Shown here piece after piece: positions 43,394-60,877 of a DNA stretch of 64,000 bases. The first letter of the stretch is position 1; every line of letters starts with the position of its first letter. The position numbers and the translations under genes were made by a program. The stretch spans positions 1-64,000 of the forward strand of contig WTGU01000029.1 in NCBI GenBank assembly GCA_011523425.1, written 5' to 3'. Under the pieces are notes generated by a model. That model did no database searches. It was given only the letters and a program-made list of their open reading frames with translations, and was not told the DNA's origin. Origin of the DNA: Alphaproteobacteria bacterium (GTDB lineage Bacteria; Pseudomonadota; Alphaproteobacteria; UBA828).

Positions 43394-43795
43394 CTATCGC
43401 CACCGATAAACCCCCTCCAGCGCGAGGCCGCGCTGGCCGAGGTCGCGGATAGGATGGAGGATCGAGCCGGCCGCTTCCTGGCAGTGCAACACATGCGCCT
43501 CGCCCTCGATCCCGGCCCAAAGCCCGAGGTGATAGCGGCGCAGCCGCCGCGCGCCGCGCGCGTGCATGAGCACGCCGTCTCCGTCGCGGGGCGAGATCGT
43601 CGGCAGCGCGTAGTCGCCCTTGAGCGTCGCGATCTGGCGGTCCCACCCGCGCGCGCTCGCGGCGTGGGCCGGCAGGTCGAGGGCGATGCCAAACTGCTCG
43701 CGTAGCACGGCGACCACGAAGTCGGCGCAGTCGTGCTCGCCGGCCTTCCACGGCCGCCCGAGCCATGCCTCGGTCCAGTGGTGGGGACTCGTCAT
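43394..43795 (-). CDS. Phage NlpC/P60-type cell-wall peptidase
   Basis: 133 residues. EHDCADFVVAVLREQFGIAL has the catalytic cysteine of the NlpC/P60 fold, and YHLGLWAGIEGEAHVLHC has the histidine. This is the family of tail-tip peptidases (lambda K-like and GTA-type) that open peptidoglycan during DNA entry. It lies between the DUF1833-containing protein and the tail-tip gene, as in many siphovirus tail modules. Copy B of the stem-loop repeat fills the 106 bp before its start. Confidence 0.85.
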   Translation of the reverse strand: MTSPHHWTEAWLGRPWKAGEHDCADFVVAVLREQFGIALDLPAHAASARGWDRQIATLKGDYALPTISPRDGDGVLMHARGARRLRRYHLGLWAGIEGEAHVLHCQEAAGSILHPIRDLGQRGLALEGVYRWR

Positions 43796-45616: not shown

Positions 45617-46009
45617 TCAGACGCCGGACGGAATCCGCACCACGACGGCGCCGGCCGGCACCCGCAGGATGTCGTCCTCGGTGGCCTGGGAGACCGTCGT
45701 GTCCTGCGCCGCGTCGTCGACCAGCCGACCCCAGGCGCGCACGTTGCCGCCGACCGCGGCATCCATGATCGCGAAGTGCGTGGCGTTCTGCACCAGGCCC
45801 GTCGGCGCGAAGTCCACCGCCGCGAGGTTCTTCACCTCGCCCGCCGGGTCGGCGTTCTCCCGCCCGAGGTCGATGGCGACGCGGCCGGCGGCCGCGATCA
45901 GGTTGGCGCCGTTCGCGCCGGAGTCGGCGCTGGCGAGCGCCAGGAAGTCGTCGCCGGCGTTCGCGATGGCGAGCACCGCGCGGTTCTGTTCCGCTGCTGC
46001 GATCGGCAT
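45617..46009 (-). CDS. Phage tail-region protein of unknown function
   Basis: 130 residues, largely beta with small side chains (LAIANAGDDFLALASADSG, GLVQNATHFAIMDAAVGGNV) and a hydrophobic C-terminus RVPAGAVVVRIPSGV. There is no recognised domain. It lies in the tight late operon between the 124-residue gene (18 bp upstream) and the DUF1833 gene (32 bp downstream). Size and position fit a minor tail component. Confidence 0.6.
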   Translation of the reverse strand: MPIAAAEQNRAVLAIANAGDDFLALASADSGANGANLIAAAGRVAIDLGRENADPAGEVKNLAAVDFAPTGLVQNATHFAIMDAAVGGNVRAWGRLVDDAAQDTTVSQATEDDILRVPAGAVVVRIPSGV

Positions 46010-46027: not shown

Positions 46028-46402
46028 CTAGAGCCCCACGCCTTCGAGCGTGAGCGTTGCCTCCCAGGCGCGACGACCGTCGCCGCCGATGCGCGCGGTG
46101 TACGCGATCCCGCCGGCGCCGCCGCGCACGCGCACCCGGTGCTGCACGCCCGTCTCCGGCGCCGTCCAGGCAAACCAGCGGTGGGCGCAGTCGCGCGCCC
46201 AGGCGCGGAAGCGCCCATAATCGTCGTCGCTCGCGATCAGCGCCGTCACGCCGAGCGCCGTGAGCGCGCTCGCGTAGCGCCGCTCCTGGCGCACCAGCCC
46301 GTCGTCGAAGGGCGAGCGCTCGACATGCGCATCGTCGGCGACGGCGTAGCCCTCCGCCTCGACCGCCACATAGTCGGGCCAGACCAACCCTGTCTGACTC
46401 AT
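46028..46402 (-). CDS. Phage minor tail-region protein of unknown function
   Basis: 124 residues (GLVWPDYVAVEAEGYAVADD, HVERSPFDDGLVRQERRYAS, then FRAWARDCAHRWFAWTAPETG). The pattern of an early tryptophan strand and a DDG-containing loop is shared with small proteins found after the tape measure in siphovirus-type prophages, but I cannot place it in a named family. Copy C of the stem-loop repeat fills the gap before it. Confidence 0.6.
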   Translation of the reverse strand: MSQTGLVWPDYVAVEAEGYAVADDAHVERSPFDDGLVRQERRYASALTALGVTALIASDDDYGRFRAWARDCAHRWFAWTAPETGVQHRVRVRGGAGGIAYTARIGGDGRRAWEATLTLEGVGL

Positions 46403-47315: not shown

Positions 47316-47874
47316 TCACGGCGCGGCTCCCCGGGCCTCGGCGGTGCGGTAGAAGAGGACGATCTGGCGCCATGTCAGGCGCTCGCCGAGGTCGAAGTGG
47401 CCGCGTCCGTGGCCGGCCCGGACGAGGGTGTCGAGCACCCTTGCGAGCGCCACGGGTTCGTTTCCCGCGTCGCCATCTGCGCCACGACACGGCGCAAAAA
47501 AATCCGCCGTTCGCCGCCCACATCGCCTCCGACAGCGCGCGGCCGTCGGCGTCGTCCAGGCGCGCGAGCCAGGCGGCCTCGCGGTCGCAGGCACGGGCGA
47601 CCAGCTCCAGCCAGAGCGCCGCGTGGGCGGCGAGCGCCGCCTCGACCGCGAGCGCATCCGGCCCGCCCTCCGCATCGGCGTCGGCGTCCCCGTCACGGCT
47701 CGGCACCAGCGCCGCGAGCGCGGCGATCAGCGGACGCGCGAGCGCCGTCGCCTCCAACCCCTCGCGGAAGCGGAACTCCCGCACGGTGAGCGTCAGCGGC
47801 GCGCCCGTCTCCGGATCCCGCACCGGCACCGCGCGGTCGGGGAACAGCACCTCGAGCTCGCCGGCCGCGTCCAT
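47316..47874 (-). CDS. Phage tail assembly chaperone with a frame change at a T7 run
   Basis: ATG 47874 shares its A with the tail tube stop (TGATG). Frame 0 reads MDAAGELEVLFPDRAVPVRD and on to MWAANGGFF (126 residues). At TTTTTTT (47502-47496) plausible coding moves to the +1 frame, giving 59 more residues with ARVLDTLVRAGHG and FDLGERLTWRQIVLFYRT and a stop at 47316, for a 185-residue product. Without the shift, frame 0 runs to 193 residues, ends at 47293 and is Arg-rich throughout its last part. Lambda-type chaperones (G and GT) use programmed frameshifts at this position in the operon, between tube and tape measure. A real or artefactual 1-nt indel in the homopolymer would explain the same pattern. 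Confidence 0.7.
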
Positions 47875-48764
47875 CACACGGCCCGCCCGTCGATGTAGAG
47901 CGCGGGCCTGCCGCTGCCCGGCTCCAGCAGCGAGACGGCGAGCCGGATCTGCTGTTCCGAGGAGCGTCCGTCGAGCAGGGTCAGCGGGCCGGCGGGCTGA
48001 ATCGAGCAGCGCGGCGCGTAGATGTTGCGCCCCCGGCCCTCGGCCGCATCCTCGATGTAGCGGAAGGCGCCGACCACCTGCGTGAGCGCGCCCTGCACCT
48101 GGGGGCGGGCCTCGTCGGCGGGCGTGTAGTCGACGGTGAGCGCAGTGCCCGCCTCGATGCCGGCCTGGGCCTCGTGGAGAGGGTGATCCGCCGGCAGCCA
48201 GTAGAGGCGGGCACGCTCGTAGTCGACGATGAACTGGCCCGCCTGGCCGGTCTCCGTCGCGCCCTGGGCGAAGCGGCCGGCCTCTATGGCCTGAACCGCC
48301 GCCACCGGCTGCGGCGCCGTGGATGCGACGGTGACGGCCGCGATCGCCGCCGCCTGGTCCGCCGGCCGAGCCAGCCCGAGCACGCCGGCGGGGCGCGCCG
48401 CGCCGCCAAGCTGATGCCAGCGGCCGGGACGGAAGACGGCGGGCTCTCCCTGCGCCGCGTTGGCGGGATCGAGTCGCTTCACCGCGCCCACGGAGAACAG
48501 CGCCAGGTTCTCCAGGCTGATGTCGTGCAGCGTGAGCGTGACCGTGCGGGCGACGCTGCGGGCGATGCGCGCGAGCTCCGTCGCCACCGGGCCGGAGCCG
48601 GAGAAGACCGTCGTCTCCTCCGTCGTAATCTCCAGCGCGGCGCCGACCGCATCGCCCAGATAGCGCTCGCCCGTGGACGCGCCCCCCTCGTGGAGATCGA
48701 GATAGACCTCGCCGGCGCCGATCACGATGTTGTCCGTGCGCCTGTCGATGCTTCGCGCCGTCAT
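47874..48764 (-). CDS. Phage tail tube protein
   Basis: 296 residues from ATG 48764 after AAGGAGG; a longer frame upstream overlaps the previous gene too far. It begins TARSIDRRTDNIVIGAGEVY and contains LEITTEETTVFSGSGPVATE and ARTVTLTLHDISLENLALFS, the pattern of major tail tube proteins. It also has FIVDYERARLYWLPADHPL and a beta-rich C-terminal region. The start overlaps the previous stop (ATGA) and its own stop overlaps the chaperone start (TGATG). Confidence 0.75.
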   Translation of the reverse strand: MTARSIDRRTDNIVIGAGEVYLDLHEGGASTGERYLGDAVGAALEITTEETTVFSGSGPVATELARIARSVARTVTLTLHDISLENLALFSVGAVKRLDPANAAQGEPAVFRPGRWHQLGGAARPAGVLGLARPADQAAAIAAVTVASTAPQPVAAVQAIEAGRFAQGATETGQAGQFIVDYERARLYWLPADHPLHEAQAGIEAGTALTVDYTPADEARPQVQGALTQVVGAFRYIEDAAEGRGRNIYAPRCSIQPAGPLTLLDGRSSEQQIRLAVSLLEPGSGRPALYIDGRAV

Positions 48765-49261
48765 AGGGCAGCCTCCTTGCTCGTTGCGTCCCCCACCTCC
48801 ACCACGCCGGCGCGGGCGACACGGCGTATCTCGTACTCGTCCAGCCACTGCAGGCGGGCATCCTCGAGGGAGACCAGACGCCCGCGCCGGAAGGACAGCA
48901 CCTCGCGCTGGCCCGGCGGCGTCCAGCCGGCAAGCCCCCGACGGGCACGGGCTAGCAGCGGGGATAGTCGCTCCCGCCCGCGCGCGCCGGTGCGGTCGTT
49001 GGGCGCCGCCAGCATCAGCGAGACGCCGATGCGCACCACGTGCTGCACCGGCGCGTTCTCCACGCGCCGCGTCGTGCTCTCCTCGGCCTCGTCGGAGACC
49101 GGCAGCACCAGCGCCGCCGGCGTCTTCGGCCAGGCGGTGAGCGCCGCGGCATCGAGGGCGCTCAGCACCGCGGCGAAGAGCGGCGCACCACCCTCGCCCT
49201 CGAGCCCCGCCAAGCGCGCGGCCATGGCGTCGGCGACGTGGATTTCGAGGGCCGCGAGCAT
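48761..49261 (-). CDS. Phage tail terminator-like protein
   Basis: 166 residues from ATG 49261, which shares a base with the previous stop (TGATG). The N-terminal helix MLAALEIHVADAMAARLAGL, the strand VQHVVRIGVSLMLAA and the helix LSPLLARARRGLAGWTP fit the alpha/beta tail terminator or Gp37-like fold, small proteins that cap the tail tube. Position between the gpG-like gene and the tube gene agrees with this. Identity at family level is uncertain. Confidence 0.55.
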   Translation of the reverse strand: MLAALEIHVADAMAARLAGLEGEGGAPLFAAVLSALDAAALTAWPKTPAALVLPVSDEAEESTTRRVENAPVQHVVRIGVSLMLAAPNDRTGARGRERLSPLLARARRGLAGWTPPGQREVLSFRRGRLVSLEDARLQWLDEYEIRRVARAGVVEVGDATSKEAAL

Positions 49262-49710
49262 CAACCCGCCGCCCCTTCGAGCGCGCGCGAGAGGATGCGG
49301 GCGATGTCGCTCCGGTCGCGGTCGTCGATACCGAGGAAGGGCCGGGCCGGGAGCGTCACCCTGCGCCCCTTGCCGGTCCGGCCGCCGAACTGGTGAGCGG
49401 CGGCATGGGCGACGCTCGATCCCACCTCGACGCCGCGGCCATCGGCCGCGACCGTGTGGGAGATCGAAGCGCGCAGCCGCCCGCTCGCGACGAGCGTCCG
49501 CCCGCCGTCGGCCAGCGCCCGGGCGCTCTTCAGCCAGGGCGCGCCGTCGGGCCCGCGCTGCTGCGCGAAGCGCCGCAGCGTCGACGCGACCAGATGGCGG
49601 CCGATCTCGTCCATCACAGGGCGGGGCCGGGCCAGCGGTGCCGCGATGCGCGCAAGCTGCGCCGCGGCCGCCTCGGCGCCGATCTCGATGCCTGTTGCCT
49701 GCCCGGGCAT
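49261..49710 (-). CDS. Phage virion morphogenesis protein (Mu gpG-like)
   Basis: 149 residues. IGRHLVASTLRRFAQQRGPD followed by GAPWLKSARAL and GRTLVASGRLRASISHTVAA is the typical sequence of the phage virion morphogenesis/tail completion family that includes Mu gpG. VAHAAAHQFGGRTGKGRRV, ARPFLGIDDRD and a helical end complete it. Its ATG follows directly after the TAA of the 40-codon gene upstream. Confidence 0.85.
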   Translation of the reverse strand: MPGQATGIEIGAEAAAAQLARIAAPLARPRPVMDEIGRHLVASTLRRFAQQRGPDGAPWLKSARALADGGRTLVASGRLRASISHTVAADGRGVEVGSSVAHAAAHQFGGRTGKGRRVTLPARPFLGIDDRDRSDIARILSRALEGAAG

Positions 49711-49833
49711 TTATAAAGCCCTACCGCTGCGATCTTCTGCCGCGAGCCTGCCGGCGCGACGCTTGAGGGTGGGGATCTCTGCCCCCTTATCGATCCGCGC
49801 GCCTTTGGCGCGACGCTGCTTGAGGGCAATCAT
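49711..49833 (-). CDS. 40-residue basic protein in the phage operon
   Basis: ATG 49833 shares a base with the TAA stop of the DUF1320 gene (TAATG), and the TAA at 49713-49711 is directly followed by the ATG of the gpG-like gene. The peptide runs MIALKQRRAKGARIDKGAEI and ends RRAGRLAAEDRSGRAL, with 11 Arg or Lys residues in 40. GGCGGGG lies upstream as a possible ribosome site. No family is recognised. The exact packing matches the other junctions in this operon and is the main argument that it is translated. Confidence 0.5.
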   Translation of the reverse strand: MIALKQRRAKGARIDKGAEIPTLKRRAGRLAAEDRSGRAL

Positions 49834-50234
49834 TACAACCCCGCCAGGTTGTCGGGCGTCATGGCGGGGGCGGGGCCGGCGTGCGCCGCGCGCTGCAGGC
49901 GGGCCGCCGGCCGGCCGGCGGCATCGAGCAGGGCATCGCTGCCGGCGGCAAGCCGTGCGAGCGCTGCCCGCGCCTCGTCGGCGCGCGCGCTCACTTCGGC
50001 CGACGCCGCATCGTCGTAGAGCGCGCGGCGCGCCAGATCGCAGGCGATGCCCACGAGGCGCGGCCAGGGGCCGCCCTGCAGCGGCAGGCGATAGGCGGCG
50101 GCGAGCGCCGCATCGACCTCGGCCGCGGCGTCCGCCAGCGCGACATCGATCCGGCCCGCCTGCAGCCCGGCGAGATCCAGCGCCTCGTCCGTGCCGAAGC
50201 GGGTTTCCAGGTCCGCGCGCGTGGCGTAGGTCAT
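49833..50234 (-). CDS. DUF1320 family phage protein (Mu gp36-like)
   Basis: 133 residues from ATG 50234. TYATRADLETRFGTDEALDL at the start and VDAALAAAYRLPLQGGPWPR with LVGIACDLARRALYDDAA in the middle are the hallmark of DUF1320, found in Mu-type phages between head and tail genes. The role is probably head-tail joining. It overlaps the upstream gene by 4 bp (ATGA) and the downstream small gene by one base. Confidence 0.85.
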   Translation of the reverse strand: MTYATRADLETRFGTDEALDLAGLQAGRIDVALADAAAEVDAALAAAYRLPLQGGPWPRLVGIACDLARRALYDDAASAEVSARADEARAALARLAAGSDALLDAAGRPAARLQRAAHAGPAPAMTPDNLAGL

Positions 50235-51142
50235 GCGCCGCGCTCCGACGAGACCAGCCGCCAGAGCCGGTTGCGCTCGGCCCGCGCGATGTCGCCGAGG
50301 CCCGTCGCACGGCGCAGCGCGCGCAGGTAGGGTGCGCCGCGGTGGCGCCCGTGCTTCAGGCGCGGCCCCGTCCAGGCGCGCATGGCGGCGAGGATGGCCT
50401 GTGTGCGCGCGCCCTCCCGCACCGCCGCGTCCAGCACCGGCGCGGCGCGGGTTGCGGCCGGCTCCTCCAGCGGCCCGCCGTCCGGATCGAGCCCGGCTTC
50501 GGTCAGCACCCTCTCCCGCTCGCGCGCATAGAGGGCGATGCGCGCCTCGACGCGGGCGGTGGCGGCGGCAGCCTCCTCGGGCGTCTCGGTCACGCCGTGC
50601 TCGGCCATGGCGCGTTGGCGCCGGACCTCCTCCTCGCGCTCGCGCTCGATGGCATCCGCCATGCGGGCGGCGTAGGCGCGGGCACCGGCGCGGCGGGCGG
50701 CGAGCGCCGCCACGTCGGCATCGGCCTCCATCCGCGCGCACGCCTCGCGCACCTCGTCCGAAAGCCGCGGCTGCGGATGGTCGATGCCGAGCGGCGTGTA
50801 CTGCGGCACCGCCCGGCGCGCGCGCCCGGCGTAGTCGAGCACCGTGAGCAGCGTGACCGAGGGCTCCTCCACGATGCGCCGCTCGGCGCGCTGGAGGTCG
50901 CGCATCTCCGGCACGAGCCGCTCGCGCAGCGTGCGGCCCATGGCGCCCGGGCGCAGCCATCCGGTCCACGAATCCCTGATCTCGCAGTAGGCGTGGACCA
51001 AGTTGAGCATGCGCTCTGCGTGCCGGCAGACCTCGTTCTCGGCCGCGCTCTGGCGCGCATCGCTCGGCGAATAGCCGACGCCGCAGAGGTGGTCGGGGGG
51101 TCGCGCCGGAAGGCGCGCGGACGAATCGCGTGAGGGTGCCAT
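50231..51142 (-). CDS. Phage head-region protein of unknown function
   Basis: 303 residues. The N-terminal half has two cysteines close to the start (CGVGYSPSDARQSAAENEVC) and helical segments. ADAIEREREEEVRRQRAMAE and a long charged helix around residues 170-220 suggest a coiled coil. The C-terminus is basic (ARAERNRLWRLVSSERGA). There is no recognised family and it does not resemble a portal. It starts 3 bases after the capsid gene stop and overlaps DUF1320 by ATGA. Confidence 0.65.
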   Translation of the reverse strand: MAPSRDSSARLPARPPDHLCGVGYSPSDARQSAAENEVCRHAERMLNLVHAYCEIRDSWTGWLRPGAMGRTLRERLVPEMRDLQRAERRIVEEPSVTLLTVLDYAGRARRAVPQYTPLGIDHPQPRLSDEVREACARMEADADVAALAARRAGARAYAARMADAIEREREEEVRRQRAMAEHGVTETPEEAAAATARVEARIALYARERERVLTEAGLDPDGGPLEEPAATRAAPVLDAAVREGARTQAILAAMRAWTGPRLKHGRHRGAPYLRALRRATGLGDIARAERNRLWRLVSSERGA

Positions 51143-52130: not shown

Positions 52131-52487
52131 CTAGTGGAGGCTGGGTACGAGCAGCACCTGGCCGATATCGCCGGCGACGCCGGAGACCTCGGCGATGCCG
52201 ATGACGCGATTGCCGCCGGCGGCGGTGACGGCCTTGCCGTCGCCGTCGGCGGTGAGCAGCGCTCCCCGCGCGACCGTGCCGCCATATTCGATGTCCGCGA
52301 TGCCGACGCGGGCGATCTCGACGCGACCGCCCGAGGCCGCCGCCGCCCGGCCGGAAACCCCGACATGGGCATCCGCCGCGGCGGACGACTGCACCACCTT
52401 GCCGTCGGCATCGTCGTACTTGACGATCCGGCGCGGGGCGACGGCGCCGCCGGCGTCCGCCGCCCGCCACATCAGTACATGACTCAT
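52131..52487 (-). CDS. Phage capsid decoration (DUF2190-like) protein
   Basis: 118 residues. It is beta-rich: RRIVKYDDADGKVVQSSAAA, GIADIEYGGTVARGALLTAD and GNRVIGIAEVSGVAGDIGQV. The pattern of a small barrel with GARLTADGDGKAV-type turns fits capsid cement proteins of the DUF2190 type that bind the outer capsid. It lies between protease and capsid genes, where such genes normally are, and overlaps the protease stop by ATGA. Confidence 0.75.
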   Translation of the reverse strand: MSHVLMWRAADAGGAVAPRRIVKYDDADGKVVQSSAAADAHVGVSGRAAAASGGRVEIARVGIADIEYGGTVARGALLTADGDGKAVTAAGGNRVIGIAEVSGVAGDIGQVLLVPSLH

Positions 52488-53578
52488 TGAGCTCCTCCTC
52501 CGGTGCCGAGCCCGCGCCTCGCGCGCGCCCGATCCACTGCTTCTGCTGGTGTGAGGGTTGCGCCCCTCTCCGCCTCCGCCGCCATCAGGGCGCGGGCTTC
52601 GGCGGCGATTCGGCCGCTGTCCTCTTGGGCGGCCTCGCGGGTGTCCGCCGGGCCCGAATCGCCCGGCAGCGGGCCGCCCGCGAGCGTGCGGTAGTCCACG
52701 CGCCGGGGCAGGCCCTCGAGAAACCGTTCCAGGAGGGCGGCAGGCTGCGCCCGTTCCTCGCCGCCGTCAGCCGAGGCGAAGACGATGGCGGTCTCCTCGC
52801 CTTCCGCCACCTCGTGACCCACGAGGGCCGCGAGCAGCGCCGCGAGGCCAGCGCGCTCGGCCGGAAGGACCCGGCCGGCCTCGACATGGCGAGCGAGCGC
52901 GGCCTCCGCCTGGCGTCGCCTCTCGTCCGCTGCGAGCGCCGCCTCCCGCATGGCGAGCTGCGCCTCGCGCTCGTCGAGAGCGGTTGCTTTCTCGGCCAGC
53001 GCGATGTCGTCACCGTCATCCCCTCCCCGCCCCGCGGGCGCGGAGAGGGGAACGAGGCTGTCGCCGTCTTCGTCCCCTGTCGCCCCGCGGGTGCGGAGAG
53101 GGTCCGGGTGTGGCGGGCGCGGGTCGCCGGGCGAGTCCACCCCGCCGTCGTCCGTGGCGCCGTGCGCGCCGTCCTCGAAGGCAAGCACCGCCTCCGGCTC
53201 GGCGGCGAAGCGCGTCGGCACGAGACCCGGCACCGCCGGCGCACGCCCGCCGAGAAAGCCGACATGGCGCAGCGTGTCGCCCTGCAGCGCGATCGAGCGG
53301 CCGGCGTAGAGCCCGGCCTCCACCGCCTCGCGGAAGGCCGGCGCGATGTCGCGCAGGGTCGCCTGCAGCCGGTCGCCGACGCGGCGCAGGCCCTCGATCC
53401 AGGCGTAGGCCGGCGCGTCGGTCTCGGGATGGCCGACCACGACGGGCGCCGGGTCGGCGGCGGCATGGGCCGCGACGATCCGGTCGAGCCGGTCGACGTC
53501 GAGGCGGACGGCGCGGCCGGCCAGGTCCTGCCAGGTGCCGGCGCGGCAGATATCGATCCAGCCGTCGAGGGCGCTCAT
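52484..53578 (-). CDS. Phage prohead protease/scaffold (Mu gpI-like)
   Basis: 364 residues from ATG 53578, preceded by GGAGGCGC. Residues 1-140 match the Mu-type I protein (IDICRAGTWQD, VVVGHPETDAPAYAWIEGLR, AFREAVEAGLYAGRSIAL, GRAPAVPGLVP). Residues about 156-187 come from a palindromic repeat (53019-53113). Residues 190-260 are a coiled coil rich in Glu and Ala (AEKATALDEREAQLAMREAA), which serves as scaffold. The protein would assemble the prohead and cut itself and partners. The neighbour upstream should be portal or gpF but is an unrelated plus-strand gene. Confidence 0.8.
   Translation of the reverse strand: MSALDGWIDICRAGTWQDLAGRAVRLDVDRLDRIVAAHAAADPAPVVVGHPETDAPAYAWIEGLRRVGDRLQATLRDIAPAFREAVEAGLYAGRSIALQGDTLRHVGFLGGRAPAVPGLVPTRFAAEPEAVLAFEDGAHGATDDGGVDSPGDPRPPHPDPLRTRGATGDEDGDSLVPLSAPAGRGGDDGDDIALAEKATALDEREAQLAMREAALAADERRRQAEAALARHVEAGRVLPAERAGLAALLAALVGHEVAEGEETAIVFASADGGEERAQPAALLERFLEGLPRRVDYRTLAGGPLPGDSGPADTREAAQEDSGRIAAEARALMAAEAERGATLTPAEAVDRARARRGLGTGGGAQ
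53019..53113 (-). repeat. Palindromic REP-like repeat translated inside the protease/scaffold gene
   Basis: On the minus strand it reads CCGGACCCTCTCCGCACCCG, then a central GACGAAGACGGCGACAGC and CCCTCTCCGCGCCCGCGG. It encodes the peptide start PHPDPLRTRGATGDEDGDS. The same pattern of two hairpins with a GACGGCGAC-like spacer occurs outside genes at 61631-61744. Confidence 0.8.
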
Positions 53579-53850
53579 CTCGCGCCTCCGCGGGCTAGGC
53601 AGCGATGAGTGGTGCCCCGGATGGGGCGGTGGGCGGGTGCCGAAGCGGTCAGTGCGTTCATGGCGCGGACAATGCCTCGGCGCGCACGGCCTGTGCATCG
53701 CACCATGGTCCGGGGTGTTAACCCTCCGCTTCGCGCTGCGGCACCGCCCGGCCGGCCCGCTCCGCGCTGGACAGAAAGCGAGCCGGGCTGTGAGATGGCC
53801 CGGAGTCTTCCGGCCTCCGGCCGGCCTCTCGGCGGAACGGAGATGCGGCC

Positions 53851-54777
53851 ATGTCGGCAGAAGAACGGGGAAAGCGCGTCGTCCTCCTGGACGGCGGCGT
53901 GGGGCAGGAGCTGCACAAGCGGGGCACCGGGCCGGCTGCGCCTCTCTGGTCCGTGCAGGTGATGATGGACGAGCCGCACCTCGTCGAATCAGTGCATCGC
54001 GACTTCATCGAGGCGGGCGCCCGCATCATCACGGTCAACGCCTACACCGCGACGCCGCACCGGCTGGCGCGCGCCGGCAAGGGCGACATGTTCGATGCGC
54101 TGCAGGCCGCCGCCGTCGCCGCAGCGAAGGCCGCGCGCGATGCCAGCGGTCGGACGGTCAGGATCGCCGGCTGCCTGCCGCCTCTGGTGGGGAGCTACCG
54201 GCCCGACCTGACGCCGCCGGAGGACGTCCTCCGCGCGGACTACGGCAGGATCGTCTCGGCGCAGGCCGACCACGTGGACCTCTTCCTGTGCGAGACCATG
54301 CTGTCGGCGGCGGAGGCGTGCGCGGCGACGCGCGCCGCGCGCGCGAGCGGCAGGGCCGTCTGGACGGCGTTCTCGGTCGACGATGCGGACGGCACCCGGC
54401 TGCGCTCGGGCGAGCCGGTGGCGGACGGCGCGCGCGCGGCCATCGACACCGGCGCCGAGGCGGTGCTGATCAACTGCTCGAGTCCGGAGGCGGTCACCGC
54501 CGCCATGCCCATCCTGGCCGAGCTCGGGGTGCCGTTCGGCGCCTACGCCAACGGCTTCGTCTCCATCGGAGCCCTGCAGCCGGGCAGGACCGTCGACGTG
54601 CTGGAGGCGCGCGACGATCTGGACCCGGCGCGCTACGCGGACCACGCCATGCAATGGATCGCGGCAGGCGCCACCATCGTCGGCGGCTGCTGCGAGATCG
54701 AACCCGCCCACATCGCCGCAATCGGGCGCCGCCTGGAAGCGGAGGGCTACGACCTCGCGGCCGATCCTCGGCCTTGA
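53851..54777 (+). CDS. Homocysteine S-methyltransferase family protein
   Basis: 308 residues. LLDGGVGQELHKRG opens the barrel, then IITVNAYTATPHRLARAG. INCSSPEAV supplies the first zinc cysteine, and VGGCCEIEPAHIAAIG the Cys-Cys pair. Members move a methyl group from S-methylmethionine or a related donor to homocysteine. It is complete and points opposite to the phage operon in which it is placed, between terminase and protease. The hydrolase gene follows after 110 bp. It is probably chromosomal cargo rather than a phage gene. Confidence 0.88.
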   Translation: MSAEERGKRVVLLDGGVGQELHKRGTGPAAPLWSVQVMMDEPHLVESVHRDFIEAGARIITVNAYTATPHRLARAGKGDMFDALQAAAVAAAKAARDASGRTVRIAGCLPPLVGSYRPDLTPPEDVLRADYGRIVSAQADHVDLFLCETMLSAAEACAATRAARASGRAVWTAFSVDDADGTRLRSGEPVADGARAAIDTGAEAVLINCSSPEAVTAAMPILAELGVPFGAYANGFVSIGALQPGRTVDVLEARDDLDPARYADHAMQWIAAGATIVGGCCEIEPAHIAAIGRRLEAEGYDLAADPRP

Positions 54778-54887
54778 CCCGGCGGCACCGGGCAGGCGCC
54801 CGCCTGAGGAGCCGGGCGCTCGCTCCGGGCAGGCGGAGCAACTATTCTCGGCCCGCGACGCGCCGACCGACGACGGGTGATACAGGC

Positions 54888-55775
54888 ATGTTCGAAGGCT
54901 TCACCGGAACCCGCATCGAGACCTCGTCCGCCGCCATCAATCTGGTCACCGGCGGCGCGGGTCCTCCACTCCTCCTGCTCCACGGCTATCCGCAGAACCA
55001 CGTGATGTGGCACAAGGCGGCGCCCGCTCTCGCCGCGCACTACACGGTCGTGGCGCCCGACCTGCGCGGCTACGGCGACAGCAGCAAGCCGGCCTCCGAC
55101 GAGTTGGAAGACCACTGCAAGCGCGCCTCGGCGCGGGACCAGGTGGAGGTGATGGCGGCGCTGGGCTTCGATCGCTTCCACGTCGTCGGCCACGACCGCG
55201 GCGCCCGCGTGGGCCATCGCATGGCGCTCGACCACCCCGCGCAAGTCCGCACCTTCACCTCGCTCGACGTGGTGGCCTCCCAGGCGGTCTTCGAGAACAT
55301 GGACCGCGACCTCGCGTTCTCGTTCTTCCACTGGCACCTGATGCGCCAGCCGGCGCCCTTCCCGGAGACGCTGATCGGCAACAGCCCGAAGCTCTTCCTG
55401 GACTTCCTGCTGGCGCAGTGGTGCGCCGTCGCCGGCGCGATCACGCCCGAGGCCTACGCCGACTATCTCCGATGCTTCAGCGATCCCGAGACGCTGCGCT
55501 GCATGTGCCTGGACTACCGCGCCATCCAGCTCGATCTCGTCCACGACGAGGCGGACCGGGGCCGGCGCATCGCCTGCCCGATGCTGGTGCTCTGGGCCGG
55601 CGACATGGCCCGGCGGCCGGGCTGGCAGACCGGCGGGTCGCTCGACGTGCTGGAGAGCTGGCGCGAGCGCGCCGAGGACGTGCAGGGCCGCGCGCTGCCG
55701 TGCGGCCACTTCCTGCCCGAGGAAGCGCCCGAGGAGACGGTTCGCGAGATCCTGGCCTTCCTCGCCGATCGCTGA
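54888..55775 (+). CDS. Alpha/beta hydrolase, haloacetate dehalogenase-like
   Basis: 295 residues from ATG 54888. LLLLHGYPQNHVMWHKAAP is the oxyanion segment, VVAPDLRGYGDSSKPASDE the next strand, and FHVVGHDRGARVGHRMALDH has an aspartate as nucleophile in place of serine. FHWHLMRQPAPFPETLIG matches the His-Trp halide-binding region of fluoroacetate dehalogenases, and CGHFLPEEAPEE holds the catalytic histidine. It could cleave a haloacid or an epoxide. It is the second of two plus-strand genes inside the phage late region and converges on the terminase gene, 19 bp away. Confidence 0.82.
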   Translation: MFEGFTGTRIETSSAAINLVTGGAGPPLLLLHGYPQNHVMWHKAAPALAAHYTVVAPDLRGYGDSSKPASDELEDHCKRASARDQVEVMAALGFDRFHVVGHDRGARVGHRMALDHPAQVRTFTSLDVVASQAVFENMDRDLAFSFFHWHLMRQPAPFPETLIGNSPKLFLDFLLAQWCAVAGAITPEAYADYLRCFSDPETLRCMCLDYRAIQLDLVHDEADRGRRIACPMLVLWAGDMARRPGWQTGGSLDVLESWRERAEDVQGRALPCGHFLPEEAPEETVREILAFLADR

Positions 55776-55794
55776 GGCGACCGACAACCCTCTC

Positions 55795-57147
55795 TCAGAA
55801 GAAGTCGACGAGTCCGCTCGCACGGCGGCGGGCGGCGATGCCTTCGATCCTCGGGCTGCCGGTGCGGGCGGCGGCGCAGGCGAGCGCGAGCGCCCAGAAG
55901 CGATCGGCGTGACCGTCCGTGGCGGAACGCTCCGCCATCAGCCGGGGCGCGCCCGTCGGCCCCGCTTCGGCGCGGACCGCATGCAGGTCGCGCCTGAGAT
56001 CGGCGTCCGCCGGGAGGCGCAGCCTGCGGTCCTCCACCGCCTCGCGCAGCGCCGTCGCCGCGTCGAGACGGCGCGGCCCGGTCATCAGCACGCCGTCGAC
56101 CGTTGCGCTGCCGAGCTCCTCCTGAAGCTGCTCCACCACCGCCTCGCCCATGCCGGTCTGATCGACGGCGATGCGCGCCGGGCGGTAGCGGGCGGCGAGC
56201 ACGCCGACCAGCGCCCGCTGCGCGCTGAAGGGAATGGCGCGCCGGGTCACCAGCTCGCGCAGCCACAGCACGTCGCCCACCTGCTCGAGCACGGCCGCCA
56301 CCCAGAGGTCGCGGCGCCGCGCCACGTCCACGCCGATGGTCGCGGTGCCGCCGGCGAAGGCGGCGGGATCGCCCGCCGCCGCATGCTCGCAGGCGCGGAT
56401 CGCGTCCCAGCCGAGCCAGGCGCCGGCGCCGGCGGCGGGGATGCAGTCGAGTTCCTCGCCCGCATGGGTTCCGTACTCCGTCCTGAGCGCCGCCTCCCAC
56501 GCGGCTTCGGCGCGTGTGGACCAGGGCTGCACCCTCTCCTCGCAGATGCGGCGGAAGAGCCCCTCGGCCAGCGCCTCCTTCAGCGTGACGCGGTGGAGCG
56601 AGCCAGGCCGCCTGCCCTCGCGCAGGTCATGGCAGAGGACGGCGAAGGGGTTGGCCTCGCCGTTGTGGGTGCTGATGACGTGCGCCCGCCCGCCCCAGAC
56701 CCGGAACGCCATCGCCGCCTTGAGCACCTGGCCGAGATCGTCGACGAAGGCCGCCTCGTCGACGATGGCGAGATCGCCGGGCCGGCCCCTGGAGCGGAAG
56801 GCCCGGGGCGCGCTCGTCATGGCGAGGATCTCGCGGCCCGAGGCCAGCGCGATGCGGAAGGCCCGGAGGCTGCGCGGGCCGTCCGCGATCAGGGTCTCGC
56901 CGAGGCGGGTGGCGCCGATCTCCAGCGCCTTCGCCCAGCGGGCGCAGTCCTCGATGAAGCCGCGCGTCATCTCCAGGTTGTAGGCCTGGTAGTAGACGTT
57001 GCCGCCGCCGCGATTGCCCGCGTGCACCACGGCGCCGTAGGCCTCGGCCCAGGAGATGCCGATACGGCGCGCCTTCTCGATCACCTTGAACCCGGCATCG
57101 TCCGAGACCCAGCGCGTCTGATAGGGAAGCAGGCTGAACCTGCTCAT
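55795..57147 (-). CDS. Phage terminase large subunit (Mu gp28-like)
   Basis: 450 residues. SLLPYQTRWVSDDAGFKVIE and KARRIGISWAEAYGAVVHAG form the ATPase entry; the usual GK(S/T) of Walker A is GIS here, as in several gp28-type proteins. RPGDLAIVDEAAFVDD is Walker B. The C-terminal nuclease has TATIGVDVARRRD, ARIAVDQTGMGEAVVEQL and TDGHADRFWALALACAA with the metal-binding aspartates. It cuts and pumps phage DNA into proheads. The portal gene that should follow is absent. Confidence 0.85.
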   Translation of the reverse strand: MSRFSLLPYQTRWVSDDAGFKVIEKARRIGISWAEAYGAVVHAGNRGGGNVYYQAYNLEMTRGFIEDCARWAKALEIGATRLGETLIADGPRSLRAFRIALASGREILAMTSAPRAFRSRGRPGDLAIVDEAAFVDDLGQVLKAAMAFRVWGGRAHVISTHNGEANPFAVLCHDLREGRRPGSLHRVTLKEALAEGLFRRICEERVQPWSTRAEAAWEAALRTEYGTHAGEELDCIPAAGAGAWLGWDAIRACEHAAAGDPAAFAGGTATIGVDVARRRDLWVAAVLEQVGDVLWLRELVTRRAIPFSAQRALVGVLAARYRPARIAVDQTGMGEAVVEQLQEELGSATVDGVLMTGPRRLDAATALREAVEDRRLRLPADADLRRDLHAVRAEAGPTGAPRLMAERSATDGHADRFWALALACAAARTGSPRIEGIAARRRASGLVDFF

Positions 57148-57300
57148 CGTCCCCTGCCCCGCCGCGGCTCCTGCCGCGACGTTGAGCGGAGACGGGCATG
57201 CTTGCCGGCCGACGCGTGACGCATGACGCCATGGTGCCGGCGACCGTCGGCGCCGGCCACCGGACCATGGTGCGCCGGGACCGCCCGTGCGCCGGCGTCG

Positions 57301-57864
57301 CTACGGGTCGATCCCGAAGATGAAGTTGAGCCCGAACAGGCCGATTTCCAGGCCGTCGCCGTCCGTCTGGTAGGTCGAGCCCAGCGCCGGGCGCGCCCCC
57401 GTGCTCGCCGCGAGCGAGCCGGCGCCCTCCCAGGGCAGCGGGCCCTGCCAGACGATGTTCGACCTGATCGCATAGAGGGCGCAGTCGGGCCGGGCGCCGG
57501 GATGAGCCGCCGCGACCTCCGCACGGCAGAGCTGGAGAGCGTGGTGCTTGTAGTAGACGTCCTTGACCGAGCGGGACCAGGGATTGGCCAGGCTCTGGCA
57601 GCGGCCGGGAGCGCAGTAGACGTACCAGCCACCCAGCCCATTGCGGTCGAGGGCGAGCACGGCATAGCCGCGCCGCGCCTGGCGCAGATATTTTTCCCAC
57701 CAGTCCGAGAACCACGCCGGCGCGCCCGCGTGCAGATCGTCGGCACGCAGCGCCGGCCCGGCGCCGGGCCCTTCGACCGCGCGTATGCGGTGGCCCTCGA
57801 TGTAGGCGGGCGCGGCGCAGGCGGCGAGCGCGGCGAGCGCGACGCCGACGATCAATGCTCGCAT
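57301..57864 (-). CDS. Small lipoprotein downstream of the phage repressor
   Basis: 187 residues starting MRALIVGVALAALAACAAPA, a short signal peptide with a lipobox cysteine at 16. The mature part has GWYVYCAPGRCQSL, a paired-cysteine loop, then HHALQLCRAEVAAAHPG, CALYAIRSNIVWQGPLP and a hydrophobic end LEIGLFGLNFIFGID. A pattern of Cys followed by lya...iVW is seen in uncharacterised secreted alphaproteobacterial proteins. It starts 35 bp after the repressor stop and is likely transcribed with it, so it would be made in the lysogen. The role is unknown; a superinfection exclusion lipoprotein is one possibility. Confidence 0.65.
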   Translation of the reverse strand: MRALIVGVALAALAACAAPAYIEGHRIRAVEGPGAGPALRADDLHAGAPAWFSDWWEKYLRQARRGYAVLALDRNGLGGWYVYCAPGRCQSLANPWSRSVKDVYYKHHALQLCRAEVAAAHPGARPDCALYAIRSNIVWQGPLPWEGAGSLAASTGARPALGSTYQTDGDGLEIGLFGLNFIFGIDP

Positions 57865-57899
57865 GACGCTCCTCCCTGCCGATGCCGGCCCGCGCCGGC

Positions 57900-58823
57900 T
57901 CATTCGAAGGTGCGGGAGGCCCAGCGCACCTCGCCGATCACCTCCGCCTCGCGCGGCCAGGGAACCTCCGCCCAGGACGGGTGATCGCTGACAAGAAACC
58001 ACTGCCGCCCGCGCCGGTCCAGCCGCTTGACCACCAGGCCCTCGCCGGTGCTGACGACGAAGATGCGCCCGGCGCGGCGACGGGTGCGATCCCGATCCAC
58101 CAGGATCTTGGTGCCGGCGGGCAGGGTCGGCTCCATGGATTCGCCCCGCACGGAAATTACCACACAGCGCGTCGGGTCCATGCCGTGGTCGTCGAGCCAG
58201 TCGCGCCTGAACCAGACCGGCCCCTTGACCGGCGCCTCGTCGAGATTGACCGCCCCGCCGCCGGCCGCAGCCTCGACCTCGCGCGTCCCCACCGAGCGTG
58301 CGGCAGGCGGCACGCTGTCCTCGTTCGCCGCCGCGACCGGCCGCGCGTCGGAACCGCCGAAGCTGGCACCCGGCGCCGGCCGCAGCTCGTCCGGAATCGG
58401 ATCGCCGCCGGCACCGGTGACGAGCCGGTTCAGGGCCTGCGCGCCCGCCTCCAGATCGCGCAGCGCGGCGGGCGAGAGGCCGCCTCGCGCGGCAGCACCC
58501 GCCTTGGGCGGAGCGCCGGACGGATCGTCGACACGGGGCTCGTGCAACGCCCTCACGCCGGTTGCGGGCGGCAGGGGTGACGGAGCGGATGCGCGCGCCT
58601 CCCCGGGCGGGCCGATGGAAAGCGAGAGCCCGAGAGCGGCGCAGATCTCGGCCGCACGGTCCACCGACGGCGCCTGCCGGCGGGTCGGGTCGAGAATGCC
58701 GCGCAGCGCCCAGGGCCGCAGACCATGCGCGGCCTCGAAGCGCCGCGCGCCCACGCCCGCCGCCTCCAGCGCGTCGCGCACGGCGCGGCGGATCTGCTCG
58801 CTCGGTCGGGGCCGACTCGACAT
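57900..58823 (-). CDS. Phage repressor, LexA-like S24 peptidase type
   Basis: 307 residues from ATG 58823. The N-terminal part (SEQIRRAVRDALEAAGVGAR, AHGLRPWALRGILDP) is a helix-turn-helix domain, then an Ala/Pro-rich linker of about 110 residues. The C-terminal S24 domain has VVISVRGESMEPTLPAG with the serine (about S229) and GEGLVVKRLD with the lysine (about K266). The self-cleavage AG or CG site is not obvious. Such repressors bind operators as dimers and are removed by RecA-stimulated cleavage. It faces the Ner-like gene across a dyad-rich intergenic region. Confidence 0.85.
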   Translation of the reverse strand: MSSRPRPSEQIRRAVRDALEAAGVGARRFEAAHGLRPWALRGILDPTRRQAPSVDRAAEICAALGLSLSIGPPGEARASAPSPLPPATGVRALHEPRVDDPSGAPPKAGAAARGGLSPAALRDLEAGAQALNRLVTGAGGDPIPDELRPAPGASFGGSDARPVAAANEDSVPPAARSVGTREVEAAAGGGAVNLDEAPVKGPVWFRRDWLDDHGMDPTRCVVISVRGESMEPTLPAGTKILVDRDRTRRRAGRIFVVSTGEGLVVKRLDRRGRQWFLVSDHPSWAEVPWPREAEVIGEVRWASRTFE

Positions 58824-58914
58824 GTGCACAATATAGCACAAACGATCGTGCAGAAAAGTGCTTGATTCGACTATGCGTGATCGTGCATATATGTTTAATG
58901 GTGCACAGCGATCA
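58822..58914. promoter_or_regulatory. Divergent operator/promoter region of the phage switch
   Basis: This short, AT-richer segment has repeated GTGC/GCAC half-sites: TGTGC-N8-GCACA at 58823-58840, CGTGC-N5-GTGC around 58847-58861, and TGATCG ... CGATCA with inner GTGCA ... TGCAC at 58878-58914. A rightward promoter TTGATT-N17-GCATAT (58862-58890) and a leftward TATATT 6 bases from the repressor ATG can be seen. Both start codons fall about where transcripts would begin, so one or both mRNAs may be leaderless. Confidence 0.6.
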
Positions 58915-59158
58915 ACTCCTCGTCACCCTCATCCGCACATATGCGGCGGCCCGCGGCATCTCCGTCTCCTACGCCTCGCGCCTGCTCACCGGCAGCGGCG
59001 ACACGGTGGACCGCATCGCTGCCGGGATGAGCGTCACCGCGCGCCGGGCCGAGGCCATCCTGGGCCGCGCGTCCGAGCGTTGGCCCGCCGGCCTCCCCTG
59101 GCCCGCCGGCATTCCCCGCCCGGCCGCGCGCGCCGACGACGACCGGGGCGCGGCATGA
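58898..59158 (+). CDS. Small DNA-binding phage regulator (Ner/Cro position)
   Basis: 86 residues from ATG 58898 (GTG 58901 is the next choice). HSDQLLVTLIRTYAAARGIS, then VSYASRLLTGSGDTVDRI and MSVTARRAEAILGRASERWP, is all helical and fits a small helix-turn-helix regulator. No Shine-Dalgarno motif precedes the start. The position opposite the repressor is that of ner or cro in Mu-type phages. In Mu the next genes would be transposase A and B, but here the Gam-like gene comes directly after. Confidence 0.6.
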   Translation: MVHSDQLLVTLIRTYAAARGISVSYASRLLTGSGDTVDRIAAGMSVTARRAEAILGRASERWPAGLPWPAGIPRPAARADDDRGAA

Positions 59159-59207
59159 CCGGTCCGCGCCGGCCCTCGGGAACGCGAGGCGCGAGAAGGA
59201 GGATCAG

Positions 59208-59753
59208 ATGACCCGACCGTCCCCGCAGTTGCCGGGCCCCATGCAAGAGATCGTCGCTCTCGCCCGCGCCTTCGCGGCCGCGCGGGAGGCGACGGAGACG
59301 TTGGCGGACGACATCCGGGCGCTGCAGCGCAAGGCGCTCAGCGGCAGGCTGCGTGCGCTCCGCAGCCGCATCGCCGAGCAGGCGGCGGCCGAGGAGGCGC
59401 TGCGCGAGGCGATCCGGGCCCGGCCCGATCTCTTCATCCGCCCGCGCACGGTCGCCATCGACGGCGTCAGGTTCGGTCTGCGCAAGCAGCCGGGCGCCGT
59501 CGCGCTCGGCGACGAGGCGCAGGCGATCAGGCGGCTTCGCGCCCGCTTCCCCGAACGGGCCGAGGCACTGATCCGGGTGCGGGAGACACTCGACCGCCAG
59601 GCGCTGCGCCGGCTCACCGCCGCGGAGCTCGCGCAGATCGGCGTCACCGTCGAGAAGGCGACGGACGAGGTGACCATCGCGACGGCACGGAGCGAGCTCG
59701 ACGGCATCCTCGTCGCCCTGCTCGACGACACGGGCCCGGCGGAGGCGGCATGA
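59208..59753 (+). CDS. Host-nuclease inhibitor Gam-like protein
   Basis: 181 residues after a strong AGAAGGAGGATCAG site. A long N-terminal coiled coil (REATETLADDIRALQRKALS, LRALRSRIAEQAAAEEALRE) leads into TVAIDGVRFGLRKQPGAVAL, ERAEALIRVRETLDRQALRR, and a C-terminal IGVTVEKATDEVTI. This is the order of Gam proteins of Mu-type phages: paired helices, a beta strand pair and the final EEF-like strand. Mu Gam protects linear DNA ends from host exonuclease. Assignment is by pattern and operon position. Confidence 0.55.
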   Translation: MTRPSPQLPGPMQEIVALARAFAAAREATETLADDIRALQRKALSGRLRALRSRIAEQAAAEEALREAIRARPDLFIRPRTVAIDGVRFGLRKQPGAVALGDEAQAIRRLRARFPERAEALIRVRETLDRQALRRLTAAELAQIGVTVEKATDEVTIATARSELDGILVALLDDTGPAEAA

Positions 59754-60451
59754 CGGAACGACTCATTCATATCCCTCAGGCGCCGGGCGCTCGCTCCGCG
59801 AGCTTGGCTACGCGCCTATCGGCGCGCGGCGCGGTCGCGCCGTCCGGGCCTGACGGCCCGGCCCTCCCCGCAGGGCCGGCCACGCGCAAGCTGCGGGCGC
59901 TCTGGATCAGCGCCTTCCATCTGGGTATCGCGCGCGAGCGCTCCGATGCGGCGCTCGCGGACTGGGTCTGCCGCCGAACGGGCCTCGACGCCGATACCGG
60001 CGCCGCGTCCGCCGATCTTGCCGGCGCCGCCCGCGCGCTCGAGGCCTGGCTCGCGCGTGCCGCGGGCGTCGACTGGCGGCCGCACCTCTCCCTCGGTCGC
60101 GACGGCCGGGTGCGGGAGACGCGCCACCCCCGGGCACGGGTGCTGGAAGCGCAGTGGCGCCTGCTCCATCGCCGCGGCCTGGTTCGCATCGGCAGCCTCG
60201 CCGCGCTCGGCGCCTATGCCGCCCGCCACGCCGGCCTCGAGCGCCTCGATTCGCACCTCGCGCTCACCGATTCCCAGGCCGATGCGCTGATCCGTCATCT
60301 CGGCAAGCGGCTGCGGGCGGCGCTCGACGCCTGCGACGAACGCGGGGCGAAGACGGCCGAAGCCCCCTGGAAGAAGCGCAGGAAGCGGCTCGGCCGTCGC
60401 GGGGCGCGGCCTGCGGCGTGCCCTCATCCGTTCGCCTCGACCGGTGAGTGA
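59750..60451 (+). CDS. GemA-like regulatory protein with a tandem domain
   Basis: 233 residues; the ATG overlaps the Gam-like stop as ATGA. The first seven codons (MTERLIH) are followed by about 33 residues from stem-loop repeat copy D. RKLRALWISAFHLGIARERS with DAALADWVCRRTGLD and ALEAWLARAAGVDW matches the DUF1018/GemA domain of Mu gp16-type proteins. A second copy follows: ARVLEAQWRLLHRRGLVRIG, ALGAYAARHAGLERLD and ADALIRHLGKRLRAALD. The C-terminus is basic. GemA alters host gene expression and DNA gyrase use in Mu; the effect here is unknown. Confidence 0.6.
   Translation: MTERLIHIPQAPGARSASLATRLSARGAVAPSGPDGPALPAGPATRKLRALWISAFHLGIARERSDAALADWVCRRTGLDADTGAASADLAGAARALEAWLARAAGVDWRPHLSLGRDGRVRETRHPRARVLEAQWRLLHRRGLVRIGSLAALGAYAARHAGLERLDSHLALTDSQADALIRHLGKRLRAALDACDERGAKTAEAPWKKRRKRLGRRGARPAACPHPFASTGE
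59770..59873 (+). repeat. Stem-loop repeat copy D, translated near the N-terminus of the GemA-like gene
   Basis: It reads ATATCCCTCAGGCGCCGGGC on the plus strand, through CTTGGCTACGCGCC, and ends GGCCTGACGGCCCGGCC. The orientation relative to the gene is the same as for copies A-C. It encodes IPQAPGARSASLATRLSARG in the reading frame also used by copy A. Confidence 0.88.
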
Positions 60452-60496
60452 CCCCCTCTACCGTCCGGGGCAGGGACGGCACGACCGGGCGCGCAC

Positions 60497-60877
60497 GTGA
60501 GCCGGGGCAGAGGCGGCATCGCTGACATGAATGCCTGCGACCGCGCCCTTCCCGGCGTCCTCGACGAGATCGCCGGCGTCGCCGGAAAGGCGACCGCCAT
60601 CAGGATGGCGCTGGCCTGGGGCGGCCGCGAGGTTCACATCCCCAAGCCGCGCCATCTCGCCCGCCATCCGGATCACCCGCTCGCCCGCCTGCTGGAGGCG
60701 GAGGGGACCGCGCTCAAGGTGGCGGACTATCTTGGCGGCTGCAGCGTCTACCTGCCCCGCGCCAGGCGTGCCTGCGCCATCCACCTCGCCGCCGCCGGCG
60801 CGACCCCGGCGGAGGTCGCCGCCCGCCTCGCCATCGCCCCCGGTGTCGCCCGCCGCTACGTCCGCGGCGCGCCCTGA
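60497..60877 (+). CDS. Mor-like middle/late transcription activator
   Basis: 126 residues from GTG 60497; ATG 60527, ten codons later, is equally possible, and neither has a good ribosome site. LPGVLDEIAGVAGKATAIRM with WGGREVHIPKP, the strand that dimerises Mor, is followed by LGGCSVYLPRARRA and a C-terminal helix-turn-helix GATPAEVAARLAIAPGVARR. This is the order of the Mor/C family of Mu, which turn on middle or late genes. It is the last phage-like gene on the right. Its target promoters would have to lie on the opposite arm. Confidence 0.65.
   Translation: MSRGRGGIADMNACDRALPGVLDEIAGVAGKATAIRMALAWGGREVHIPKPRHLARHPDHPLARLLEAEGTALKVADYLGGCSVYLPRARRACAIHLAAAGATPAEVAARLAIAPGVARRYVRGAP

Follow-up and report, generated by a model that had tools for sequence, protein, structure and literature searches.

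Gene transfer agents (GTAs) are defined as particles that are loaded chiefly with host DNA and carry no more than part of their own genome; three independent origins have been formally described, and the known origins are separate (PMC9662315). In RcGTA and its relatives (Rhodogtaviriformidae), phage head–tail and packaging genes are kept in a bacterial lineage and inherited vertically, parts lie at more than one locus, the tape measure is short and control is common. The agents of Bartonella (BaGTA) and Brachyspira, compared here by description only, are independently domesticated tailed-phage gene sets, and we know of no description of a Mu-type portal or terminase in either. The portion of PMC12946183 considered here describes GTAs as encoded by multiple dispersed operons and presents FpGTA I of Faecalibacterium, a recent GTA operon outside the classical lineages with further structural genes outside the operon. 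We describe a set of Mu-type phage genes (the element) that resembles these systems in the respects listed. It was studied from a 64,000-nt stretch (the window; bases 1–64000 of contig C80) of an alphaproteobacterial draft metagenome-assembled genome (MAG), G000, of 3.62 Mb in 159 contigs and 99% complete.

Unlike RcGTA, the element has Mu-type head and packaging genes, lacks PF09343 and carries a promoter copy at each module. The RcGTA marker PF09343 (gp12) was found in none of 21 genomes of the family to which G000 belongs and in five other members of the class; without RcGTA head–tail genes such as gp12, the element falls outside the Rhodogtaviriformidae. FpGTA I differs in being a short-tailed-phage-like operon of a Firmicute, and the same portion of its source mentions neither a shared promoter family nor a multi-copy small terminase. 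We consider it probable that the element is a domesticated, co-regulated Mu-derived system working like a GTA, with particles and DNA transfer as predicted features. That its genes are under selection, are inherited together and share one promoter we hold with high confidence.

The comparison set consisted of seven genomes of the same genus (G001–G007, separate MAG assemblies, G004 being only 62% complete), which with G000 make eight genus genomes; three relatives from other genera were included in the promoter-core and gp27 searches. Neighbour-gene names in the sister genomes rest on sequence start and context, with profiles applied to only some of them.

In the window, the head maturation protease and the large terminase subunit flank two intact plus-strand metabolic genes. 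Gene calls and family searches of this interval agree on the layout with a first-pass annotation of the same DNA, and they recognised neither portal nor gpF between protease and terminase, as that annotation had also claimed. It had proposed that the module was deleted and replaced, that no DNA packaging was to be expected without a portal and that the two metabolic genes might be cargo. A search for a portal in the rest of the genome, which it had suggested as a check, was decisive: exactly one Mu-type portal (PF06074) was found, on contig C30 (2254–3156) and behind its own promoter, with no gpF there and no match to gpF (PF04233) anywhere in the genome. The portal on C30 rules out replacement or cargo; with gpF missing from the element genus-wide, there was no local swap. 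The expectation of no packaging fails because the portal sits at another locus in G000 and in six of the seven other genus genomes. The homocysteine S-methyltransferase family gene and the hydrolase (53851–55775) occur at the protease or terminase of no sister genome and so are not conserved cargo; they look like ordinary host genes put there by rearrangement. That the locus is rearranged was correctly seen, the portal having been parted from the terminase and host genes set beside the latter. The exact joins at 53.6–57.2 kb in this one assembly are predicted from the draft contig alone. The parts of the interval that matter are the head promoter (53696–53709) and the terminase promoter (57258–57271).

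The comparison of gene order in related genomes, another check that had been proposed, showed that the separation of portal and head cluster recurs. The portals of G001–G003 and G005–G007 are 84–87% identical to that of G000, and the only portal of G004 is that of a separate Mu prophage; the element portal is thus present in seven of the eight genus genomes and the head cluster in all eight. The terminase adjoins the portal in G002, G005, G006 and G007; in G001 the portal is accompanied by a terminase fragment at the contig's edge. In G002, G006 and G007 the terminase–portal pair has a methionine-synthase-like gene on one side and a large biotin-carboxylase-like gene on the other. The protease–capsid–tail cluster neighbours the ATP synthase operon in G000, G002 and G007 and a short-chain dehydrogenase block in G001, G003, G004 and G007. 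The split is visible in long host contigs (63 and 144 kb, C9 and C127 of G007; 112 kb, C50 of G006), and the host surroundings of the modules recur between species. Gene order differs between species. Since it is seen in separate assemblies, the split is a trait of the genus; in G000 a further event separated terminase and portal, and the terminase was left with host genes as neighbours.

The contiguous late operon of Mu-type phages, with portal and gpF beside the terminase, was accordingly not found, the portal being elsewhere and gpF absent. In the genus gpF is confined to separate Mu prophages in G002 (C24) and G004 (C628), and a tblastn search with the gpF of a sister phage found no hidden or degraded copy at the portal or protease loci. 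These two prophages (L030 and L026, respectively) look intact, have contiguous terminase, portal and gpF genes, and make a useful contrast set.

The element genes have diverged with the host. Across the genus their synonymous divergence (pS) is 0.25–0.43, compared with 0.22–0.40 for flanking host genes, and over 17 non-independent genome pairs the protein distances of element and host correlate with r = 0.80. Open reading frames of the element are intact across species, and the structural and packaging genes are under purifying selection: the median ratio of nonsynonymous to synonymous divergence (dN/dS) is 0.105 for the capsid, 0.14 for the tail terminator, 0.16 for the decoration protein, 0.22 for the portal, 0.28 for the terminase and 0.31 for the protease, with host genes mostly at 0.05–0.25. 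In the terminase, the Walker-B residues D130-E131 and aspartates D274, D329 and D415 are invariant in an alignment with intact Mu-type phages. In the terminase and portal trees, the element forms one clade beside viral contigs L095–L097 (support 86/88 and 79/91). The element is thus inherited vertically with the host lineage, as its genus-wide presence, recurring host neighbours and host-like synonymous divergence indicate, and one domestication in the genus ancestor followed by vertical descent appears, on these sequences, to fit better than repeated infection or passive decay.

The scattered modules (protease–head–tail, terminase, portal and lysis genes) have one palindromic promoter, ACCATGGTGCGGTG, in common. 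A strong block upstream of the protease, CACCCCGGACCATGGTGCGGTGCACAGG, is common to seven genomes, and the same palindrome as at the protease precedes the terminase, the portal and DUF5675. A −10-like stretch and an ATG close the promoter unit, the ATG lying 47 bases from where the core begins; it serves as start codon for DUF5675 in three genomes and for the G000 portal, and probably for the terminase in G002 and G007. The 14-base core occurs 30, 32, 50, 18, 8, 9, 44 and 28 times in G000–G007, respectively, and not at all in the three other-genus relatives, with 0–1 occurrences of a reversed control. At least four dispersed loci have the same promoter at each, and from sequence we predict that they are jointly controlled. 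In the intact Mu prophage of G002 a perfect palindrome, ATCGGACCATGGTCCGAT, directly follows mor, and L097 has a partly matching stretch in the same place; because of this position, a Mor-type activator is the likely, predicted reader of the palindrome. The promoter behind the repressor and lipoprotein genes precedes lysis genes in G006 and the terminase in G000, and it is plausible that modules were shuffled by recombination at promoter copies.

About 20 intergenic promoter sites of G000 without a recognisable gene start a diverged repeat of 200–450 bp; they lie on contigs C5, C6, C22, C33, C37, C44, C46, C71 and others (L135–L157), several of them near contig ends. A hidden protein family was considered for these extra sites and rejected, since the reading frames that follow are short and lack conservation; the sites may be relics, RNAs or functional DNA sites.

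Behind other extra promoter sites, small terminases of the Mu gp27 type (PF11985, E-values down to 1.7e-27) were found. G000 has three profile matches (C52:29712–30215, C100:4662–5159 and C100:32276–32773), and G001–G007 have 5, 10, 2, 4, 0, 10 and 4, some of them partial and one in G004 coming from its Mu prophage; the three other-genus genomes gave no match. Most copies examined have the promoter just upstream. Full-length copies keep the N-terminal region, some others keep the C-terminal part only, and one copy lies between cutA and ispH, an orthologous place, in G000, G002 and G006. The order livF–site–hslU in G000 contrasts with livF–site–terS and site–terS–hslU on two contigs of G007, and a small-terminase site on C100 of G000 with a gene-less site at the matching place in G006; these two comparisons link the gene-less sites to small-terminase cassettes. 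A loss of gp27 from the element is ruled out by the scattered copies reached through the promoter motif. To our knowledge, an amplified and scattered small-terminase family has no counterpart. In some headful phages the packaging start site lies in or beside the small-terminase gene. By extension, the cassettes and the promoter-only relics could serve as functional packaging start sites at many points of the chromosome, a proposal we rate as a long shot; if true, this would be a GTA whose packaging origins are distributed and multiply within the genome. The scattered family makes the choice of packed DNA in such systems directly testable.

Contigs L095–L097 are the nearest relatives outside the genus and show the ancestral gene order, which in L097 is MuA, MuB, Gam-like, GemA, Mor, DUF5675, membrane protein, DUF2730-like, gp26, gp27, terminase, portal and gpF. 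Terminase and portal of this Mu-type contig are each 74% identical to those of the element, and Mor, GemA, the Gam-like protein, DUF5675 and the membrane protein are shared between the element and the sister phages. Against L097, the loci of the element are missing gpF and gp26, and the element's portals stop at least 100 residues sooner. More distant are two Mu-type phages with siphovirus-like tails, Pseudomonas phage JD18 (capsid ∼40% identical) and Chromohalobacter phage YPCBV-1 (portal 40% identical); phages of this kind have MuA/MuB, gpF and one contiguous late operon, whereas the element is scattered, without gpF and gp26, and has a shortened portal. The named genomes with relatives of the capsid are MAGs throughout, labelled Rhodospirillales or Alphaproteobacteria bacterium, and a scan of IMG/VR with the capsid gave no match. 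The related phages give a before-and-after view of domestication: they show which parts were dropped (gpF, gp26 and the C-terminal end of the portal) and which are kept, and how a single operon turns into many loci by the copying of one promoter. The gpF of L097 (11615–13714) has a C-terminal ADP-ribosyltransferase-like domain (PF01129, 2.5e-4, below the cut-off).

The regulatory half of the element is held by G000 at 57301–60877. A module of S24 repressor, small protein, Gam-like protein, GemA and Mor is present in G000, G002, G004 and G005, and the C-terminal S24 domain of the repressor hardly varies among three species. In G005 the repressor is split over two contigs that have no exact overlap, and these contigs are presumed to adjoin. 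The regulatory module has DUF5675, the membrane protein and DUF2730 next to it in G002, G004 and G006 and nearby in G005; in G006 at least the repressor and the Gam-like gene are beside them.

From family knowledge and the anatomy of the loci, the following course of events can be proposed. A Mu-type phage with a siphovirus-like tail, kin to L095–L097, would have entered the ancestor of the genus; its head, tail, packaging, lysis and regulatory genes would have been kept under selection and scattered over the chromosome, with gpF and a conserved transposase lost. The modules would be switched on together by a single activator of phage origin, most likely Mor, which the S24 repressor would hold back; since every module bears the same palindromic promoter, one activator can fire them all. 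On DNA stress, the repressor would cleave itself, Mor would rise and all modules would be expressed simultaneously; heads would be filled with host DNA by a headful mechanism involving both terminase subunits and the portal, and lysis would free the particles. In the lineage of G000, a rearrangement would have parted portal from terminase and set two unrelated host genes beside the latter. Binding by Mor, the trigger, the particles, the packaging of host DNA and its transfer are predicted parts of this circuit. Few independent GTA origins are established; a Mu-derived one, if true, would bring a further phage lineage into that set, and in a family that appears to lack the usual alphaproteobacterial agent. 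The literature searched held no Mu-derived GTA; coverage was partial and this is weak evidence.

Several observations weigh against such a system. We infer the particle, the packaged DNA and the transfer from genes. The G000 portal (382 residues) is ∼30 C-terminal residues short compared with other genus copies; G005 has no small terminase that the gp27 profile could find; the repressor was not found in G001 or G003, nor GemA in G001; and the lysis genes were not located in G000, where no search elsewhere was made for DUF5675, the membrane protein or DUF2730. The tape measure and outer tail genes have a median dN/dS of 0.4–0.5, the clade support in the two trees is only moderate, and beyond the window (C80:73538–76883) lies a length-intact MuA/MuB pair with a MuA frame of 675 residues and an uncertain link to the element. 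A decaying Mu-type prophage, broken up by chance rearrangement and surviving passively, with the metabolic genes marking damage, would account for the missing gpF and gp26, the shortened G000 portal, the decaying MuA/MuB copies and a gene order that varies between species; intact reading frames, dN/dS of 0.1–0.3 in capsid, portal and terminase at host-like synonymous divergence, and the same promoter kept or gained by each module argue against decay, which we regard as unlikely.

A domesticated particle serving a purpose other than DNA transfer, for instance killing or signalling without DNA, would agree with the retention of tail and tail-tip genes and with the loss of gpF, a protein that works at the head in known phages. 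We judge it quite unlikely: large terminase, portal, protease and several small-terminase copies are kept, with the catalytic aspartates of the terminase invariant, and a tail-only particle is disfavoured because it would need none of these genes. Nor does the element consist of tail genes only, as a tailocin would; capsid, protease, portal and terminase are present and conserved. The first-pass annotation had also named misassembly, and an assembly artefact could have joined unrelated loci in G000, the phage being otherwise ordinary: the genome is a draft MAG, the joins at 53.6–57.2 kb lack read support, and in several places promoter repeats sit close to contig ends, so that repeats do break assemblies. 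We hold this to be very improbable, since misassembly cannot account for the portal split when separate MAGs embed the head cluster and the terminase–portal pair in host genes on different contigs (C9 and C127 of G007, C50 of G006). The features of the window are listed in Table 1.

Table 1. Element features and adjoining genes in the window, by position, with profile matches (E-values) or other grounds for each assignment
Feature	Position	Strand	Grounds
Tail tip protein, J-like, 1936 aa	37279..43089	-	phrog_31 2e-97; PF13550
Tail-associated peptidase-like protein	43394..43795	-	Position and conservation in genus; weak DUF6950 match only (PF22262, below cut-off)
Minor tail protein, DUF1833	43902..45584	-	PF08875 2e-22
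Two small virion proteins	45617..46009 and 46028..46402	-	phrog_240, phrog_384, PF23140
Short tape measure protein, 258 aa	46527..47303	-	PF09718 3e-18
Presumed tail tube protein	47874..48764	-	Flanked by tail terminator and tape measure; kept in six genus genomes; no family match
Tail terminator	48761..49261	-	PF23840 3e-18
Tail completion protein, gpG-like	49261..49710	-	PF05069 3e-29
Head–tail adaptor, Mu gp36-like	49833..50234	-	PF07030 2e-15
Conserved protein c6	50231..51010	-	In seven genus genomes; no family match
Major capsid protein, 324 aa	51146..52120	-	phrog_1005 7e-68; ∼90–93% identical in seven genus genomes
Decoration/cement-like head protein	52131..52487	-	phrog_673 2e-22
Head maturation protease, gpI-like	52484..53578	-	phrog_976 1.9e-46
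Promoter palindrome of head–tail operon (Mor-type, predicted)	53696..53709	-	Kept at this place in seven genomes
Homocysteine S-methyltransferase family gene; outside element	53851..54777	+	PF02574 5e-56; intact
Alpha/beta hydrolase, haloacetate-dehalogenase-like; outside element	54888..55775	+	PF00561 5e-29; intact
Terminase large subunit	55795..57147	-	PF17289 8e-20; phrog_2 2.5e-28
Promoter palindrome of terminase gene (Mor-type, predicted)	57258..57271	-	Same palindrome as at protease
Lipoprotein-like protein beside repressor	57301..57864	-	Kept next to repressor in G002, G004, G006
Phage repressor, S24 peptidase	57900..58781	-	PF00717 5e-16; phrog_4 2e-27
Small conserved protein, first early gene	58898..59158	+	Conserved in G002, G004, G005
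Mu Gam-like protein	59208..59753	+	PF07352 2e-5, below cut-off; 55–64% identical to sister-phage gene
GemA	59804..60451	+	PF06252 4e-17
Mor transcription activator	60527..60877	+	PF08765 6e-6, above cut-off

A MuA–MuB cassette, 60–65% identical to that of L097, occurs away from other phage genes in G000, at the C80 position given above and at C52:18800–20800, and on C170 of G001; it may be a mini-Mu-like transposon. The copies on C52 and in G001 are decayed, and G005 gave no MuA-type match. Across the genus, with G006 and G007 outside the search, MuA/MuB was not found conserved with the element and occurred only in scattered cassettes or separate prophages. The pair on C80 was considered as a conserved part of the element, which is not supported; it belongs to a multi-copy cassette that is decayed elsewhere.

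The tail-tip protein of the window is longer than its counterparts in G001, G002 and G007, which have 1128–1188 residues. In these three genomes the tail-tip gene is followed by a fast-changing gene (dN/dS 0.70, counted as host in the selection analysis), which may encode a tail fibre.

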